Assembly: GCF_017426725.1 (NCBI RefSeq) | Contig: NZ_JAERMS010000010.1 | Coordinates: 1-64,000, forward strand | Reading direction: 5' to 3' | Origin: Prevotella illustrans | Lineage (GTDB): Bacteria; Bacteroidota; Bacteroidia; Bacteroidales; Bacteroidaceae | Length of the DNA stretch: 64,000 nucleotides | In this document: piece by piece, positions 13,035-22,780 of the stretch | Position numbering within the stretch: position 1 is the stretch's first letter | Layout of the letters: the number at the start of each line of letters is the position of its first letter | Notes under the pieces: model-generated | The model's database searches: none | What the model was told of the DNA's origin: nothing | What the model saw: only the letters and a program-made list of their open reading frames with translations | Made by a program: the position numbers and the translations under genes

Positions 13035-13814
13035 TCAAACTTCTATTGCCAGCGTCATTTCTTCGGCGTTGAATCTTACGTCAGGATGGGCTACGTAGCG
13101 GGCGAGGGTGCCGTCGGCGGTCAACTGTCGGGGTGTGCCTATGACGAGTTGGCGGCCGGACATCAGCCATAGCCGGTCGGCCAACTGCATGGAAAGCTCC
13201 AGATCGTGGGAAGAAAGAAAGATCGTCTTATCGGTTTCGCGGACCAGATGGCGAAGCAATTTCATCGTCTCTACCTTGCTTGGAAAGTCGAGAAAAGCCG
13301 TAGGCTCATCCAAGATGATGACGGGCGTCTGCTGGGCCAGGGCCTTGGCAATCATCGTCTTTTGGCGTTCGCCATCGCTGAGGTCGCTCACCATGCGGTG
13401 GGCAAGGCTTTCCATGCCCACTAAGCGCATCGCTTCGCCGACGGCCCGACGGTCGGCGGTGCGCAGACGGCCCCAGAAGTCGGTGTAGGGTGAGCGTCCC
13501 AGAGCCACGAGTTCGTCCACCCGCATGTTCTGCACCTGCGGCTTTCCCGTAAGTACCACGCTGACGAGACGGGCAAGATCGGCCTTGGAGTACGAAGAGA
13601 GGGACTGTCCATGAAGCAGAATCCGCCCGTCGAGCGGTGGCAGGAATCCGGCCAGCGTGCGCAGCAGGGTCGACTTGCCCACACCGTTGCGTCCCAACAG
13701 GCAGGTGAGGCGGCCGCTGTCTATCGACGCGTTGAGGTCGGCGGCTACGACACGGCGTGCTTTCCCCTGTTTGTAGCCGATGGACAAATGCTCAAGGCGA
13801 ATGGTTTCTTGCAT
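13035..13814 (-). CDS. ABC transporter ATP-binding protein, siderophore/haem/cobalamin (FecE/HmuV) type
   Basis: 259 aa ATPase. Walker A GRNGVGKST at 41-49, Q-loop near 93 (VSVVLTGKPQVQNMRV), signature LSDGERQK, Walker B VIILDEPTAFLD and the switch histidine in LSSHDLE. The pattern VDELVALGRSPYTDFWGRL is typical of FecE/FhuC/BtuD-type ATPases that power import of Fe(III)-siderophores, haem or cobalamin. No permease or binding protein is next to it, so its FecD-type partner must be encoded elsewhere or be lost. It points away from the esterase gene across a 144-bp intergenic space. Confidence 0.85.
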   Translation of the reverse strand: MQETIRLEHLSIGYKQGKARRVVAADLNASIDSGRLTCLLGRNGVGKSTLLRTLAGFLPPLDGRILLHGQSLSSYSKADLARLVSVVLTGKPQVQNMRVDELVALGRSPYTDFWGRLRTADRRAVGEAMRLVGMESLAHRMVSDLSDGERQKTMIAKALAQQTPVIILDEPTAFLDFPSKVETMKLLRHLVRETDKTIFLSSHDLELSMQLADRLWLMSGRQLVIGTPRQLTADGTLARYVAHPDVRFNAEEMTLAIEV

Positions 13815-16055: not shown

Positions 16056-16400
16056 CCGACAAATGCCGATAGGCTTTCATGGGGTTCGGAAGACATCCCG
16101 ACAAATGCCGACAGCCTTGCCCGACTTGGGCAAACGCCACGGCAAATGCCGGCAGACTTTCCGGGCTTTCGGAAGACATCAAAGCAAAACAGATGTTAAA
16201 TGCCGGACTTCGGCAAACGCCAAGGCATAACAGATGTTAAATTCCGGAGTTCGGCAAACGTCAAGGTATAACAGGTGTTAAATGCCGGAGTTCGGCAAAC
16301 GTCAAAGTAAAACAGATGTTAAATGCCCGACTTGGGCAAACGTCCCGGCAAATGCCGACGACCTTTCCCGGCGCGTGGAAAACACCAAAGCAAAAGGAAT
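16056..16400. repeat. Imperfect tandem repeat array, 41-bp core period
   Basis: The 540 bp between the GH27 and HMA genes hold no gene. The core has four copies of a 41-bp unit starting at 16191, 16232, 16273 and 16314 (AGATGTTAAATGCCGGACTT followed by CGGCAAACG...). Related copies of AAATGCCG at 16061, 16103, 16144 and 16350 are spaced 42, 41 and less regularly. Each unit has a short palindrome (TGCCG...CGGCA) able to form a small hairpin. Unit length is not a multiple of three, and frames through it are low-complexity, so I regard it as non-coding. It resembles no CRISPR, because there are no unique spacers. Confidence 0.85.
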
Positions 16401-16470
16401 GTTTTTAGTAAGGGTTGCTATTGTCAACCCTTGGAACACTTATCGGTGAGAAAAAACCTTATTTTTAGGT

Positions 16471-16502
16471 ATTGCATGTTCTAAGGGATGTCCCTACCTT
16501 TG
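16471..16502 (+). promoter_or_regulatory. Promoter of the HMA/DUF4876/TonB/DUF6850 operon
   Basis: ATTG at 16471-16474 and TACCTTTG at 16495-16502 are separated by 20 bp, close to the Bacteroidetes consensus TTTG-N19/20-TAnnTTTG. The start codon of the HMA gene is 39 nt further. A short hairpin-forming ACCT...AGGT lies just upstream at 16456-16470; no Fur or metal-regulator operator could be recognised by eye. Confidence 0.65.
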
Positions 16503-16541
16503 CTTTCGATTTAATAACTCAACGTAGTAATAATAAAGAAT

Positions 16542-16946
16542 ATGAAAAAGATTGCAATGATGATGTTTGCCACCATGTTCGCTATGAACTTACTGGCAGA
16601 AAACGTGAAATTCAAAGTAAGCAACATGCACTGTCAAAACTGTGCAAATCGCGTGGAGAAGGCCCTGAAAGCCAATAAGGCTGTCAGCGATGTGAAGATC
16701 AATCTCGAGTGCAAGGGCGTCAGTGTAAGCTACGATGCGACGAAGACCAATGTAGAGGCACTGCAAAAAGCACTGACCGATGTCAAGTTTGACGCCAAAG
16801 TTGCCACGGAATGTGACAAGAAAGAAGGTTGCAAGCACGATGGCAAGGCTGGTGAGCATAAATGCGGCAAGAAAGAGAAGAAGCAGAACCCCGGCGAACA
16901 CAAGTGTGGAGCCGAAGGTTGCGGACACGACAAAGAGTCTAAGTAA
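16542..16946 (+). CDS. Periplasmic HMA-domain metal-binding protein with Cys/His-rich tail
   Basis: 134 aa. A signal peptide covers about 1-19 (FAMNLLA), followed by one heavy-metal-associated domain (about 22-86) with the ligand motif MHCQNC at 29-34. The last 45 residues are Lys/Gly/Glu-rich and hold five cysteines (91, 97, 108, 122, 127) and four histidines (99, 106, 120, 129) in repeating GCKHD, EHKCG and GCGHD units. HMA domains bind Cu(I), Zn or related soft metals; here the domain is exported rather than fused to a P-type ATPase. It is the first gene of an operon with a TonB receptor, so it may receive or buffer metal entering the periplasm. Confidence 0.85.
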   Translation: MKKIAMMMFATMFAMNLLAENVKFKVSNMHCQNCANRVEKALKANKAVSDVKINLECKGVSVSYDATKTNVEALQKALTDVKFDAKVATECDKKEGCKHDGKAGEHKCGKKEKKQNPGEHKCGAEGCGHDKESK

Positions 16947-16971
16947 AACAACCCTTTAATTTTGAAAAAGT

Positions 16972-18249
16972 ATGATGCGATTTTTAAAATACGCATTGGC
17001 AGCGCTCATCTGCCCGGTGCTACTCGCCTCTTGCTCTGATGACGAGGCTGAGAAGAAAATAGATGTGACGTTCAACGCCATTCCCATGGTATCAGGGACA
17101 TTGGATGTGGCTACTTTGGAAGGTACACCCGTCAAATTCACCGAGGTGCGCAGCCAAAACACAAGTCAGTTCCTGCTGAATGCCGCCGGAAAGGCGTTCG
17201 TTTCTCTGCCAATGGGCGTCTATAATATTGCGATAGACAAGGACGTTACCAACGCTGAGGGCGAGAAGGTCGTTATCTCTTTGCGCATGGAAAATGTCAA
17301 TATCAACGCTTCCGGACAGTCTATCGATGGTCATGTGAACTCGTTGCCGGCCAGCGCTCTTGGCAAGGACTTCATTTTCAGCGAGGTGTTCTTTAATGGT
17401 GAGACTAATTCGGGGCGCATGATGCATCCCGACCAGTATATCGTTTTGTTTAACCCGACGGAGAATGTGCTTTATGCTGACGGTGTTAGTATCGGTGTTA
17501 CGATGCAGATATCTTTCCAAAACAAGCAGTTGTGGTACGATAGCTACTATCCTAATCGGGTACCCATAGGCGGATTCATCACCATTCCGGGCAGTGGCAA
17601 GGATCATCCCGTGCAGCCGGGCGAGAAACTGGTGATCGCCTTTACCGCTATTAATCATTCAGAAGTGGTGAATGGAGAGATTGCCTACGACCATGCCGTG
17701 GATTTGAGCGGTGCCGACTTTGAATTATACGAAGGTCCGGACTCTAAAGACGTTGATAACCCCAAAGTTCCCAACGTACTCCTTACGGAAAACGGCGATT
17801 CTTACGGCTTCTTCCTCCATCCGCGCGGCTATGTATCACCTGTGATGTTCCGTTTGGAGAACGGTCTGCAGTCTACTGTTGACGCTTTTGTCAAGACTCA
17901 CACCACAATGTCGAAGACACATGTCAAGGCAACGAAGGACACTCCCGAAGGCGACATCGACATTCATATCCTCGCCATTGATACAGACAAGATTCTCGAC
18001 GGCATTCAGACCAGCGATGTGCCGCAGGATGTGAAGACACGCGCCGTTCCTGAGATTGTGGATCGAGGCAAGTTCCTCGTCAATGGATGCCATCGCCAAG
18101 AACTCTGTATCCGTAAGGAAATAAAAGTAGGCGATAAGATTTTCTATAAGGACACCAATAACAGTAGTGAGGACATGCAGGATGTGAATGAACGCAAGAA
18201 GGCCGGCCTCGTACAAAACGCATTCCCCATTGGTTGGAGAAAGAAGTAA
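16972..18249 (+). CDS. DUF4876-type surface lipoprotein
   Basis: 425 aa. Signal peptide with lipobox LLASC (Cys21) followed by SDDE, an acidic export signal for the outer face of the outer membrane. After an N-terminal beta-sandwich (about 30-115), the central part (FIFSEVFFNGETNSG, QYIVLFNPTENVLYADGV) has the lamin-tail-like look of DUF4876 proteins. The C-terminal part has a CHRQELC pair of cysteines. The gene starts 25 bp after the HMA gene and 21 bp before the TonB receptor gene, so it probably serves as the surface partner of that receptor, as SusD does for SusC. Ligand unknown. An alternative start is one codon downstream. Confidence 0.75.
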   Translation: MMRFLKYALAALICPVLLASCSDDEAEKKIDVTFNAIPMVSGTLDVATLEGTPVKFTEVRSQNTSQFLLNAAGKAFVSLPMGVYNIAIDKDVTNAEGEKVVISLRMENVNINASGQSIDGHVNSLPASALGKDFIFSEVFFNGETNSGRMMHPDQYIVLFNPTENVLYADGVSIGVTMQISFQNKQLWYDSYYPNRVPIGGFITIPGSGKDHPVQPGEKLVIAFTAINHSEVVNGEIAYDHAVDLSGADFELYEGPDSKDVDNPKVPNVLLTENGDSYGFFLHPRGYVSPVMFRLENGLQSTVDAFVKTHTTMSKTHVKATKDTPEGDIDIHILAIDTDKILDGIQTSDVPQDVKTRAVPEIVDRGKFLVNGCHRQELCIRKEIKVGDKIFYKDTNNSSEDMQDVNERKKAGLVQNAFPIGWRKK

Positions 18250-18270
18250 ACCGACTGCGGGAAACAATAA

Positions 18271-21045
18271 ATGAACGCATTGAAAAAGAAAATTCTTTTT
18301 TTGACTCTTTCCCTGCTATGTATGGTGACCGTTGCCGTTGGGCAGACCTGTACGGTAAAGGGAAAGATCATCACCGATCACGATGGCGAGGCTGCAAGCT
18401 TCGCCATCGTCAGTATCCGGAATCAGGAGCTTCGTACTCAGTCTGATGTCAACGGATACTTTGAACTCCGTAACGTCCCGGTGGGCAAGCATACCATCGA
18501 GGTGGAGTGCTTGGGCTATGCCAAGTTGAAACACCAGTTTACAGCAACGAAGAATGTCAGCCTGTCGCTTCAGCTGCAGAGCAGCAGTTTCATCTTACCG
18601 GAGTTTGAAGTGATGGCAAGAAAAAGCCGCAAGGGGAAGGTTGTTGTCGACGAGGCCGCTCTGGAGTACATCCAGCCCACCTCGCTGGCCGACGTGATGT
18701 TGCTGTTGCCCGGCAGTGTGTATAAAGAAAACAATCTGACGCAATTCTCACAGATCGGCAGTCGCCAAGTGGGGACCGATGCCAACACCTCGCTGGGAGT
18801 GGGAATCGTCACTGATGGCGCCCCGGTTACAAATGATGGTATCCGTTCTCAGTTGGTGGGTATTACCGCTGGCAGTGGCAGCTATGATGGTGAAGTGCGC
18901 AGTCGAACGGGTATCAATCAAGGGGCCGACATGCGAATGATTTCTACCGACCATATCCAAAGTGTGGAGTTCACGCGCGGCATATCGTCTTCCCGCTACG
19001 GCAACCTTTCGAGTGGTATGATAAGCATTTCGTCGAAGCATGGCGTAACTCCACTGCGTGTCCGCCTGAAGACTGACCTGAAGAATAAGCTCTTGTATGC
19101 GGGGAAAGGCTGGCGACTTGGAGAGAAAGCCGGTACGCTCCACGCAGGCGTCGACTATCTGCGCTCCATTGATGATATCCGTGAGGAAATGGATAAGTTC
19201 TCACGCCTGACGGGACAGCTTTATTATAATAATAAGGTAAGGCTCGGCAACTATAGTCTTGACCTCGACGGACGACTGAGCCAGACCGTCACTATCAGCA
19301 AGATGAAAAAAGACGAGCTGACCTACGAGTATGACGAGACCTACAAAGCCGACTACAGTCGTACGGCCCTGATGATGAAGGGAACGCTGACACTCGGCAA
19401 GTCATGGCTGAACCAACTGGAACTGGTCATGTCTGCCGACTATACCCACGACAAAATAAGTCGTCATCGCATGGTCATATCGGGTTCAGGTCCGATGAAC
19501 ATGCCACTGGCATACGAAGAGGGCGAGCATGAAGGTATTTACCTGCCCCGCAAATACTACAGCGACTTCTATATTGACAACCAGCCTGTGAACATCTACG
19601 CCCAGCTAAATGCCATATCACGCGTTCAGTTGGTGAAGAACACGATGCTCAACCTCCAATACGGTATCGAGTATACCAACGTGAAGAACCACGGGGCTGG
19701 TGCCGTCATCAAGGACGAGACACGTCCGCCGTTTCCTTACGACAACTCGTATATGCGCCCAAGACCAAACTGGGCTATCCCTGCCTTGGGAAATGGCGCG
19801 GCTTATGCGCAGGCCGACTTTATTTACGATGATAATAATAGAAATATCCTGCAACTCTCTATCGGAGGCCGCGCTTCTATGCTGATGAATCTGCCCCACG
19901 ATTATTATCTGCATGGCTATGTGTTGACTGACCCGCGCCTGAACCTCTCGTACATCATGGGCAAAACGCTTAAAAATACCTTTCGCGTGGGCTATGGTGA
20001 GGAGAGTAAGACACCTACGCTCGACTATCTCTATCCCGAGAAACTCTACAAGGACTTTTACATGCTCAACGCCTATACCGTCGATCCCAACTACCGCCAC
20101 CTCATTACGTATACCAATATCTACGACATGGCCAACCGCGACCTGCGTGTTAATAAGAATCGCAAGATGGAGGTCGGATGGGATATCGACTATCGTGGCT
20201 TCAGTCTCTCACTGACGGCCTTCTACGAAAAGTCGGACGCCGGTTTTGAGTATTTCACGGAATACCATCCGCTGACCTACGACCTCTATACCAAATTGAA
20301 GCCCGGTGTGAGCATCGAGGGACGCATCCCCCAGAAAAGCGATTATATACAAGAACAATACAGCATTTTCACTACGTCGCAACAGGTCAGAAACGCCAGC
20401 AAGGTTACCAAACGAGGGATAGAATATCGCCTGATACTGCCGAAAATCAAGCCGCTGTTCACGACTATAGAGATTAACGGCGCCTACTATCAGACTGACT
20501 ATGCCTCGTCGTTGCCGCTTTACTATTACCCTGCCGTGAAGATTGGTAACAAGGAGTATCCTTATGTCTGCATCTACGACAACGGTGCCAGAAACCAGTA
20601 CCGCCGTCTGAATTCCAATATCTGGCTCAACACGCATATTCCGAAGTTCAAGTTGTTTCTGACGAATTTCTTCCAGGTTGTATGGCTCAACACCTCACAG
20701 TATAAGGATAACCACGACTATATTCCCACTTCGTATATCGACATGCAAGGAAACCGTCTGCCGGTAGATGAGTTGGTCCGTGCCCACATCGCCGCTGACG
20801 ATGGCACGTTCCGCTACTTCCGACGCACGATTCTGCCCGTCAAGTACGCCCGTAACGAAAAGCCCATATCCCTTCTCTGGAATATCAAGGCCACTAAGGA
20901 GTTCAATAAAGGCACCAAGTTGTCGTTCTTCGTTAATGGTCTGCTTGATGTCAGCCCCAAGTATCTCTCCGGCAAGAAGATTACCCAGCGCGAGTGGCAC
21001 GACCCTTATTTCGGGCTTGAATTGTATTTTAATTTGAATTTATGA
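18271..21045 (+). CDS. TonB-dependent outer membrane receptor (non-SusC type)
   Basis: 924 aa. Signal peptide to about residue 24 (AVG before QTCTVKG), a CarboxypepD_reg-like beta-sandwich at about 25-105, a plug at about 120-260 (DVMLLLPGSVY, IQSVEFTRGISSSRYGNLSS) and a barrel ending in DPYFGLELYFNLNL. It lacks the SusC signature and the DUF-type SusD partner, and more resembles receptors for metal chelates or cofactors. The partners are the upstream DUF4876 lipoprotein and the downstream DUF6850 protein, whose start overlaps this stop by 4 nt (ATGA). No STN domain is present, so it does not signal through FecR. Confidence 0.9.
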   Translation: MNALKKKILFLTLSLLCMVTVAVGQTCTVKGKIITDHDGEAASFAIVSIRNQELRTQSDVNGYFELRNVPVGKHTIEVECLGYAKLKHQFTATKNVSLSLQLQSSSFILPEFEVMARKSRKGKVVVDEAALEYIQPTSLADVMLLLPGSVYKENNLTQFSQIGSRQVGTDANTSLGVGIVTDGAPVTNDGIRSQLVGITAGSGSYDGEVRSRTGINQGADMRMISTDHIQSVEFTRGISSSRYGNLSSGMISISSKHGVTPLRVRLKTDLKNKLLYAGKGWRLGEKAGTLHAGVDYLRSIDDIREEMDKFSRLTGQLYYNNKVRLGNYSLDLDGRLSQTVTISKMKKDELTYEYDETYKADYSRTALMMKGTLTLGKSWLNQLELVMSADYTHDKISRHRMVISGSGPMNMPLAYEEGEHEGIYLPRKYYSDFYIDNQPVNIYAQLNAISRVQLVKNTMLNLQYGIEYTNVKNHGAGAVIKDETRPPFPYDNSYMRPRPNWAIPALGNGAAYAQADFIYDDNNRNILQLSIGGRASMLMNLPHDYYLHGYVLTDPRLNLSYIMGKTLKNTFRVGYGEESKTPTLDYLYPEKLYKDFYMLNAYTVDPNYRHLITYTNIYDMANRDLRVNKNRKMEVGWDIDYRGFSLSLTAFYEKSDAGFEYFTEYHPLTYDLYTKLKPGVSIEGRIPQKSDYIQEQYSIFTTSQQVRNASKVTKRGIEYRLILPKIKPLFTTIEINGAYYQTDYASSLPLYYYPAVKIGNKEYPYVCIYDNGARNQYRRLNSNIWLNTHIPKFKLFLTNFFQVVWLNTSQYKDNHDYIPTSYIDMQGNRLPVDELVRAHIAADDGTFRYFRRTILPVKYARNEKPISLLWNIKATKEFNKGTKLSFFVNGLLDVSPKYLSGKKITQREWHDPYFGLELYFNLNL

Positions 21046-22709
21046 TGCGCAACATACGAATATATCTCACTGCCTTCGTCTTGGTTGCCTGCAACCAGCT
21101 TTATGCTCAAAGGTTGCTCGACCGTGTGAACCACAGTCTGTCACCATCCGAAGACCGTTATCATGTCACTCTTTCCGATTTCACGCTAACCGATGCCAAA
21201 ACCGTCTATGCGAATCCGGCCTTTACGCAATGGCACAAACAGAACGACACTACCTTGTACAAACGTTCTGCCATCGTTTACGCGGGATTGGCAGGTGCAG
21301 ACAGCAAGGGCGACTTCATCCCTTACGAGGGAAACGCTTACACAGACTATCGTATTGGGGCCTACGGCGAATACACCACCCCTCGTAGCGGTACCCTGTC
21401 GGGACGCATCCAATACGCCCAAGGCAAGCACCGCAACATCGGGTGGAGCGCCATGCGACTGCCGGAGTTGTATTTTCCTTATATCTCTACCGATTCCTGC
21501 GGCGGAGACTTTAAGTTTGATTCTTATTTTGCGGAGGGCAACTACGCGTTTACGCTCAACGAATGGACTTTGGGCGCCAAGGCCTCCTTTTATGGCGAGC
21601 AGGCTTATCGCCTGACAGACCCGCGCGCCTTGAACAACACTACCTGGCTGCGCTTCAACACCGGTGTGGCACGTCGGTTCGGGCGCAGTCTGCTGTTGCT
21701 CGATGTCGGATATGGTCGCAACAAGCAACATGTACAACTGCGCTACTGGCGCCCGGGACAACAGGACCGTTTCTTTGTTTGCTATGGTTTCGGACTTTAC
21801 GATACCCGCCAAAGCGCGGTATCTTTCGGTAAATCCCGCATGTACTATATCGACGAGTTCAATGCCCGTTTGCAATACCTTTCATCACAGACCCGATCGT
21901 TACGTCTACATGCCTCGCTGGGCTATTCCTTCGACCACATGAAGACAGAAGAGAGCGACATTTACAACCTCTACGAGTCGCGCAGTCATCAGTTGTCGCC
22001 ACTTATTCGCCTGACATTTGATCCTCGGAACGACTGGCAATTCGAACTCGGCGCCATGGGCGCCATCATCTTGCGCAAAGGTTATGAGAACATCATTGAA
22101 GAATACCTTATCGACAAGGAAAACAACATTTATGACTTCCGCACCATCGATACCCGTCAGAACTACATTCGCAATACCGGTCGGTTTTCTGCCGCGCTGA
22201 AAGCTTCCAGACGGATTGCCCGCCTTGAACTCAGCTTACAGGGAGGTGCAACAACAGAAAGTTATGAGGAGAAATACAAGGTCGACGGCCACAGAATCCG
22301 GGTTAGCACCATCACTCCCCATGTCAAGATAGGCATAGACAGGCAGGGCACTCGGGATGATATCGGCCTAAGCATACTATACGCCCGTCAGCGTGTGGTC
22401 AACAACGACTACAATGTATCTTTTCAGAACGGGCAGATTGCCCGCCTTGACTTTCAACAAGCCTTTGCTCCCTATGCCTTTCGCTGTGCCGAACTTGATA
22501 AAGTGGTGGCAAGCGTCACGTGGCAGCACCGGATGAAGAAAATAGATGTCGGTCTGAATGCTAAATTATACCTGGCCGATGGCAACCGAAAGAATGATGT
22601 TTCCTACACTGGAACCATTGGTTTTCCTTCTACGGCTCCGATGATTCGTGCAACACCGGACAAGCATCAAGAATATTGGGCGTCTCTGACGACGTTTGTC
22701 GCTTTCTGA
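21042..22709 (+). CDS. DUF6850-type outer membrane beta-barrel protein
   Basis: 555 aa. Signal peptide ending at about residue 22 (LYAQ). The rest is an alternating hydrophobic/polar pattern with many aromatic girdles and an aromatic C-terminus (WASLTTFVAF), as expected of an outer membrane barrel of about 16-20 strands. It matches what I recall of DUF6850, which is commonly encoded after a DUF4876/TonB receptor pair. It is translationally coupled to the receptor (4-nt overlap). No enzymatic or binding motif is recognisable. Confidence 0.72.
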   Translation: MMRNIRIYLTAFVLVACNQLYAQRLLDRVNHSLSPSEDRYHVTLSDFTLTDAKTVYANPAFTQWHKQNDTTLYKRSAIVYAGLAGADSKGDFIPYEGNAYTDYRIGAYGEYTTPRSGTLSGRIQYAQGKHRNIGWSAMRLPELYFPYISTDSCGGDFKFDSYFAEGNYAFTLNEWTLGAKASFYGEQAYRLTDPRALNNTTWLRFNTGVARRFGRSLLLLDVGYGRNKQHVQLRYWRPGQQDRFFVCYGFGLYDTRQSAVSFGKSRMYYIDEFNARLQYLSSQTRSLRLHASLGYSFDHMKTEESDIYNLYESRSHQLSPLIRLTFDPRNDWQFELGAMGAIILRKGYENIIEEYLIDKENNIYDFRTIDTRQNYIRNTGRFSAALKASRRIARLELSLQGGATTESYEEKYKVDGHRIRVSTITPHVKIGIDRQGTRDDIGLSILYARQRVVNNDYNVSFQNGQIARLDFQQAFAPYAFRCAELDKVVASVTWQHRMKKIDVGLNAKLYLADGNRKNDVSYTGTIGFPSTAPMIRATPDKHQEYWASLTTFVAF

Positions 22710-22738
22710 CCGCTCATCAAGCTCTTTCTTTCGTTTTG

Positions 22739-22780
22739 AGGATGTATCATAAATCATTATTTTTATGGTACATCCTTTTA
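22739..22780 (+). terminator. Intrinsic terminator after the DUF6850 gene
   Basis: A 14-bp stem with one mismatch, AGGATGTATCATAA (22739-22752) with TTATGGTACATCCT (22763-22776), followed by TTTTA. It closes the HMA-to-DUF6850 operon 30 bp after the last stop codon. Confidence 0.8.

Follow-up and report, generated by a model that had tools for sequence, protein, structure and literature searches.

The window, a stretch of 64,000 nucleotides on contig C9 of the Prevotella illustrans genome (3.09 Mb in 138 contigs, 99.3% complete), carries a four-gene operon that is probably induced by iron starvation and serves TonB-dependent uptake; it is of the DUF4876 kind, in a variant form whose first gene encodes an exported protein with a heavy metal-associated (HMA) domain. 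The promoter element and the HMA addition are new. Loci that combine DUF4876 with a TonB-dependent receptor (TBDR) and respond to iron starvation are known, and the suggestion in an earlier note on this DNA that the system might be undescribed is not supported: the available part of an RNA-seq study reports increases in low iron of 20.8 to 214.5 fold for PG1019-1022, 38 to 128 fold for BT3625-33 and 3.5 to 7.4 fold for BT1933-39 (PMC10434189), and the BT_1938 protein has a crystal structure (4Q1Z). All three loci share with the window operon the adjoining DUF4876 and TBDR genes and, as predicted for the window operon, control by low iron; in P. gingivalis, as far as the sources at hand extend, the order of the two genes (PG_1019, then PG_1020) is the same as well. 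They differ in that no HMA gene is named for them in the available part of that study, which places a HEAT-repeat protein in the locus of BT_1938 (PMC10434189). Since its authors deem such TonB and ABC systems worth further study, the DUF4876-TBDR locus stands there as described without a function. Elsewhere, in the accessible portions of three reports, the DUF4876 gene is among the genes changed by hemin (PMC10470040) and appears in the transcriptome of P. gingivalis FLL361 (PMC10101095), and the PG_1019 protein is altered in an RNA-binding-protein strain (PMC12119571).

The four genes and their products

Four plus-strand genes lie in one run, with gaps of 25, 21 and -4 bp, and encode in order the HMA protein (16542..16946, 134 aa), a DUF4876 lipoprotein (16972..18249, 425 aa), a TBDR (18271..21045, 924 aa) and a DUF6850 protein (21042..22709, 555 aa). 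The open reading frames and their spacing bear out the compact run described earlier, and the four genes are a real operon. Upstream, at 16462..16502 on the plus strand, is a promoter with the common element TTTTTAGGTATTG-N20-TAnnTTTG. In this region TACCTTTG occupies 16495-16502 and TATTG 16470-16474, which we take to match the Bacteroidota -7 and -33 boxes, respectively. A probable intrinsic terminator with a 16-pair stem and a T-rich tail follows the last gene on the same strand, at 22738..22777; the terminator scan returned 15 sites in the window against 10.4 in shuffles, so this one is plausible and unproven. The same scan found no plus-strand terminator-like site in the 25- and 21-bp gaps. 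The best sigma-70-like match (10/12), at 16962-16990, straddles the junction of the HMA and DUF4876 genes, in a scan that gave 22 such matches where 9.5 were expected, and a second transcription start may lie there. In Bacteroidota, sigma-70 hexamers are unreliable as promoter markers.

Two features of the surrounding DNA may be recorded here. Between an alpha-galactosidase gene and the promoter, at 16060-16390, diverged direct repeats recognized by eye fill about 330 bp. On the minus strand at 13035-13814 is a gene for an ABC ATPase, presumably of the FecE type, with neither a permease nor a binding protein adjoining it.

The HMA protein matches the Pfam HMA family (PF00403) at 9.1e-18, with 64.8 bits against a gathering score of 24.8. 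Together with its MHCQNC motif and an N-terminus that looks signal-peptide-like by eye, this match supports the earlier claim of an exported CxxC metal-binding protein. It resembles MerP (E 8.3e-13) and CopZ in having an HMA domain with CxxC, and differs from them in bearing a tail with five Cys and four His and in falling below the cut-offs of all 15 NCBIfam models listed (48.7 against 92.55 for MerP). Its solved relatives are copper ATPases, copper chaperones, MerP and one zinc ATPase, and the CxxC is kept in all 12 HMA proteins of the HMA loci described below. We know of no iron site in a CxxC HMA domain, a point against the iron-starvation reading. The genome has three HMA matches, namely the window gene and two on contig C76, which by eye resemble CopZ and a CopA-type ATPase. 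No publication linking an HMA domain, iron, Bacteroides and TonB was found in the literature searched; a search on heavy metal-associated domain, Bacteroid, TonB and iron matched only a paper whose accessible text concerns copper resistance in Bizionia.

The second protein matches DUF4876 (6.7e-25) and no other Pfam family, so that it is not a SusD-family partner of the kind found in SusCD importers. Its lipobox cysteine, Cys21, is invariant across 29 aligned rows. The C-terminal part of its model (pLDDT 86.0) has what we take to be a lamin-tail-like look, and domains of the transthyretin-like and pilin types are among the matches of its N-terminal domain. The model aligns over its whole chain with 4Q1Z, the solved DUF4876 protein BT_1938 (346 residues, Z 27.2, rmsd 8.9, 20% identity), to which a profile search also links the sequence (1.5e-41); the other VIA-align rows cover only the N-terminal domain. 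A lipoprotein paired with a TBDR, as had been proposed, is thus supported by the Pfam match, the lipobox and the presence of DUF4876 beside the receptor in all 32 loci of the scan described below. The XusABC system also has a surface lipoprotein, and differs in having DUF4374 and PepSY proteins in place of DUF4876, DUF6850 and HMA. Like the window operon, XusABC (BT2063-2065) has a TBDR, and it is a low-iron locus in the available part of the RNA-seq study (PMC10434189).

In the receptor, Pfam recognizes CarbopepD_reg_2 (2.6e-14) and Plug (1.1e-06, 29.6 bits against a cut-off of 23.9); the barrel family is absent from the matches to its barrel region, so that Plug alone of the plug/barrel pair is recognized. 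At E 0.001 its sequence has a single match in the PDB, to the N-terminal domain (85 residues) of a SusC homolog. The fourth protein matches DUF6850 (4.5e-51), and its model (pLDDT 86.7) shows a barrel, for which 18 long strands were counted in the DSSP line, with a helical N-terminal part and no visible plug domain. The best 50 Foldseek rows for this model are all TBDRs, and VIA-align matches it to FhaC, CymA, porins and others with Z scores of 13.7-18 and rmsd values of 3.5-6.6 A. We read it as a predicted outer-membrane barrel of a generic sort and propose no closer relationship; no publication naming the DUF6850 family was found in the literature searched. Structure prediction, which the earlier note had proposed for all four proteins alone and as complexes, thus covers the DUF4876 and DUF6850 proteins modelled singly, and yields the BT_1938 match for one and the barrel for the other.

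Distribution of the core and of the HMA gene

When named genomes were scanned with four aligned receptors, 32 loci came out, among them one of Hallella seregens ATCC 51272, whose receptor is 94% identical to that of the window operon. DUF4876, a TBDR and DUF6850 occur together in every one of them, including loci of Parabacteroides, Dysgonomonas and Myroides (in L048 the DUF6850 gene is truncated by the contig end). These three genes are a widespread Bacteroidota core, and they give a defined composition to a family of importers in this phylum that is strongly iron-regulated and still an orphan. The second barrel had been thought to be without a counterpart in TonB systems; its presence in all 32 loci means that it is not peculiar to the window operon.

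The HMA gene is distributed differently. It is present in 11 of the 32 scan loci, or 12 of 33 with the window, and absent from the other 21, and so it does not belong to the core, contrary to what the first description of the operon had implied. In a tree of 35 receptors, made with a quick method, the 12 HMA rows fall on one side of a single branch (one change, SH-aLRT 94), as if the gene had been gained once, in one clade. Within that clade all 12 rows have it directly before DUF4876. It is missing from both of the next sister rows, which are L052 (Prevotella) and L054 (Parabacteroides massiliensis). In the latter, the place ahead of DUF4876 where relatives carry the HMA gene is taken by a Cys-rich lipoprotein of 187 residues (L054:6891-7454), which has no Pfam or NCBIfam match. 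As a test of linkage, then, the genomic neighbourhood fails the HMA gene across the phylum and upholds it inside the clade, where the gene is a lineage-specific addition, stable there and outside the core.

A survey of the genus matched the window DUF4876 protein in 47 of 150 genomes, and 3 of the 20 regions chosen from these matches (L024, L025 and L026) have the HMA gene. The copy of the HMA operon at L026:37-4608 (G126) has short DUF4876 and receptor readings and a DUF6850 in two pieces, and looks decayed. Independent cases are fewer than rows: L025 and L049 are apparently the same contig, as are L028 and L066, L024 and L047 have identical scores, and the pairs L049/L051 and L053/L056 are near-identical.

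The genus also has a second type of HMA protein, encoded beside a different TBDR; 18 of 23 such loci were examined (L185-L202), and the HMA gene is present in 17 of the 18. In these loci the receptor plug bears AACCNLGESF, and several also encode, upstream, a small protein whose last residues are of the SPPR type. A tree of 30 HMA rows (74 columns, with 14 of 26 inner branches drawn open) splits the pair type from the window type with 100/100 support. A descent of the window-type HMA from these common TBDR-HMA pairs was considered and is unsupported by that tree. In L049 and L051, however, the receptors fall inside the HMA clade, yet a pair-type HMA gene and its own receptor lie just upstream of DUF4876. 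The simplest reading is that an HMA gene of the other subfamily took the place of the original, which points to a need for an exported HMA protein at that position; as the two loci are near-identical, the replacement counts as one event.

It may be that the HMA gene is a passenger, a copper-buffering gene that makes use of an iron-starvation promoter and leaves the importer untouched. The spread of the core without the gene and its apparently single gain in one clade would agree with this, but its retention directly ahead of DUF4876 throughout the clade and the refilling of the slot from the other subfamily, single event though it is, speak against it, and we consider it rather improbable. An HMA protein that belongs to an iron-starvation uptake operon remains the preferred reading.

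M16 peptidases in sister operons

Once the HMA-class and L028-like loci are set aside, 16 loci of the genus are left as a set of sister loci (L027, L029-L043), and 14 of them (L027, L029-L041, and not L042 or L043) have an M16 peptidase gene on the same strand. It lies 7-67 bp from the core in 12 cases and beyond one further gene in 2. All 14 readings have HxxEH and N-termini that look signal-like by eye; the reading is split into several open reading frames in L032 and L036. L029:13193-16015 is an example (own genome, contig C62, in the second DUF4876 operon), and Pfam confirms the C62 copy. No M16 gene was found by phmmer around the HMA-class operons, the window operon included, or around the L028-class operons.

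A TBDR together with an M16 peptidase, a combination present in the sister operons only, resembles FusA and FusC of the Fus system; the window operon differs in having no M16 gene, and to our knowledge neither the surface lipoprotein nor DUF6850 has a Fus counterpart. FusC is described, in the available part of the source, as the M16 peptidase of the TBDR ferredoxin importer of Pectobacterium (PMC6071955). The main text of a review of importers associated with proteases, as far as it was available, names Bacteroides a single time, in connection with SusC, and does not name Prevotella (PMC6793856). Protein import may be a serious reading for the family, by this analogy, and is less so for the window operon because of its missing peptidase.

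The window operon could nevertheless be a Fus-like importer, in which a metalloprotein ligand would be cut by the M16 peptidase in the periplasm of the sister systems, while in the window operon either the HMA protein would handle the metal or the C62 peptidase would serve both operons. The peptidase with HxxEH in 14 of 16 sister loci and the part played by FusC in ferredoxin import, in the available text (PMC6071955), recommend such a model; the absence of M16 by phmmer from around the HMA-class and L028-class operons, the broken readings in L032 and L036 and a ligand that is itself a prediction make it unlikely. The generalization that DUF4876-TBDR-DUF6850 systems are Bacteroidota importers of iron-bearing proteins, with swappable periplasmic modules (M16 or HMA) and one iron-starvation element, is a doubtful one. 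For the preferred reading, the existence of two alternative accessory modules, an M16 peptidase or an HMA protein, renders the ligand of the importer testable.

The promoter element and its predicted regulon

The element was recognized by eye in an alignment of the regions upstream of the 12 HMA genes, as a block common to 7 of them. As a whole it occurs once in the window, where 0.01 occurrences are expected at up to 3 mismatches. The pattern was built from the window site and its relatives, and so the independent test is its position before other genes. It lies ahead of the run in 10 of the 12 HMA loci with 1 mismatch allowed; a single run behind one promoter, as first proposed, is supported, and the promoter is conserved. 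In L047 the gene behind the element is flavodoxin, and in L049 and L051 the element stands about 400 bp before the receptor-HMA pair; with 1 mismatch allowed, L048 and L050 have no match. A flavodoxin gene neighbours the HMA run in 4 of the 12 loci. It lies upstream in L047 and, separated by small genes, in L048; in L049 and L051 it lies downstream and has its own element. Among the 21 loci without the HMA gene, the element is near DUF4876 in 8 (in L060 it is inside the longest open reading frame) and absent in 13.

In the window's own genome, with no more than 1 mismatch allowed, the 14-base core matches at 11 sites and the reversed control at 1. Six of these precede a gene, namely the window operon, the C62 operon (TBDR-DUF4876-DUF6850), a flavodoxin gene, a TetR gene followed by two ABC genes and one MMPL-like gene (by eye), an enolase gene and an outer-membrane-type gene; the other 5 are inside a gene or without a clear gene. 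The best match at a further DUF4876 operon, on contig C51, has 5 mismatches. The gene after this operon was considered as a C25 peptidase and ruled out, as Pfam gives HEAT_2 only.

Of 60 genomes examined in the genus, 49 contain the two-part element, with 94 matches in all, and the reversed control gave 0; the spacing is uniform in 90 of the 94 matches, with 13 spacings allowed. The exact element is lacking in 11 of the 60. There are 47 flavodoxin genes in 44 of these genomes, and for 29 of the 47 the element lies no more than 500 bp upstream (no more than 61 bp for 26 of these), the other 18 being without an exact copy. Apart from those 29 matches, 4 precede DUF4876 operons, the window included, 3 odd-spaced matches were left out and 58 remain; 7 of the 58 have no downstream open reading frame of 100 aa, and the first genes behind the other 51 were scanned. 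Among the families listed (25 of 28), these genes include 17 with a TBDR plug, 2 HmuY, 2 Calycin_like and 2 enolase genes, and 1 each with PepSY_TM, hemerythrin and LuxR domains. A porin-like family, recognized by eye, accounts for 14 of the 51. In one genus, then, the element predicts a regulon for the importer. It is nearly confined to that genus: order-wide, the exact element is present in 5 of 119 genomes, the window's own included, with the copy in G258 lying 45 bp ahead of a flavodoxin gene. Gene homology is thus the only link to P. gingivalis and B. thetaiotaomicron. No published description of the element was found in the literature searched, and the relevant places of a paper retrieved in a search for hmuY and flavodoxin promoter motifs, itself available in part, contain no such DNA element (PMC4222909).

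An element common to flavodoxin and other iron-starvation gene kinds points to iron starvation and not primarily to copper or zinc. In the available part of the RNA-seq study, flavodoxin and hmu are up in low iron in all three species tested, TetR-ABC-MMPL operons are up in low iron in P. intermedia, and a hemerythrin regulator (BT0519-20, CdhR) is named in a colitis comparison (PMC10434189). The likely metal thus shifts from copper or zinc to iron, and of the metal capture envisaged in the earlier note the surface TonB system and the exported HMA protein stand, while copper or zinc as the main metal does not. Import of a copper or zinc complex by the receptor, with the HMA protein as periplasmic acceptor, is very unlikely: the CxxC and Cys/His tail, the solved relatives of the HMA protein and the presence of the other HMA type beside a different TBDR in 17 of the 18 loci examined would suit such a role, but the promoter element is common to flavodoxin and other iron-starvation gene kinds, 21 of the 33 loci with the same core lack the HMA gene, and the other TBDR-HMA pairs (L185-L202) are without the element in the correct layout at up to 2 mismatches, which places the window HMA gene under different control.

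In the iron-starvation uptake operon that we favour, scarce iron would cause the promoter with the common element to fire, as the shared promoters suggest. The DUF4876 lipoprotein, on the cell surface, would offer the ligand to the TBDR, a step consistent with the lipobox, the co-conservation of the two and known TBDR-lipoprotein pairs, and the ligand, perhaps a protein or a complex that carries iron, would be driven into the periplasm by TonB. The co-conserved DUF6850 barrel is predicted to play an accessory part in this system at the outer membrane. The HMA protein, probably soluble in the periplasm, may bind Cu(I) or Zn(II) that accompanies the iron ligand or competes with it, and so clear or buffer these metals; this is the weakest step. 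The near-confinement of the element to one genus, the flavodoxin genes, genomes and DUF4876 loci without a copy, the own-genome matches that precede no clear gene and the copies before enolase and porin-like genes weigh against this model.

Two observations concern other copies of the element. Enolase genes have it in L088 (with one mismatch), L126 and L146. A perfect copy in the window's own genome, at C41:54953-54993 (L084, L133), has no convincing downstream gene and possibly serves a short protein or an RNA.
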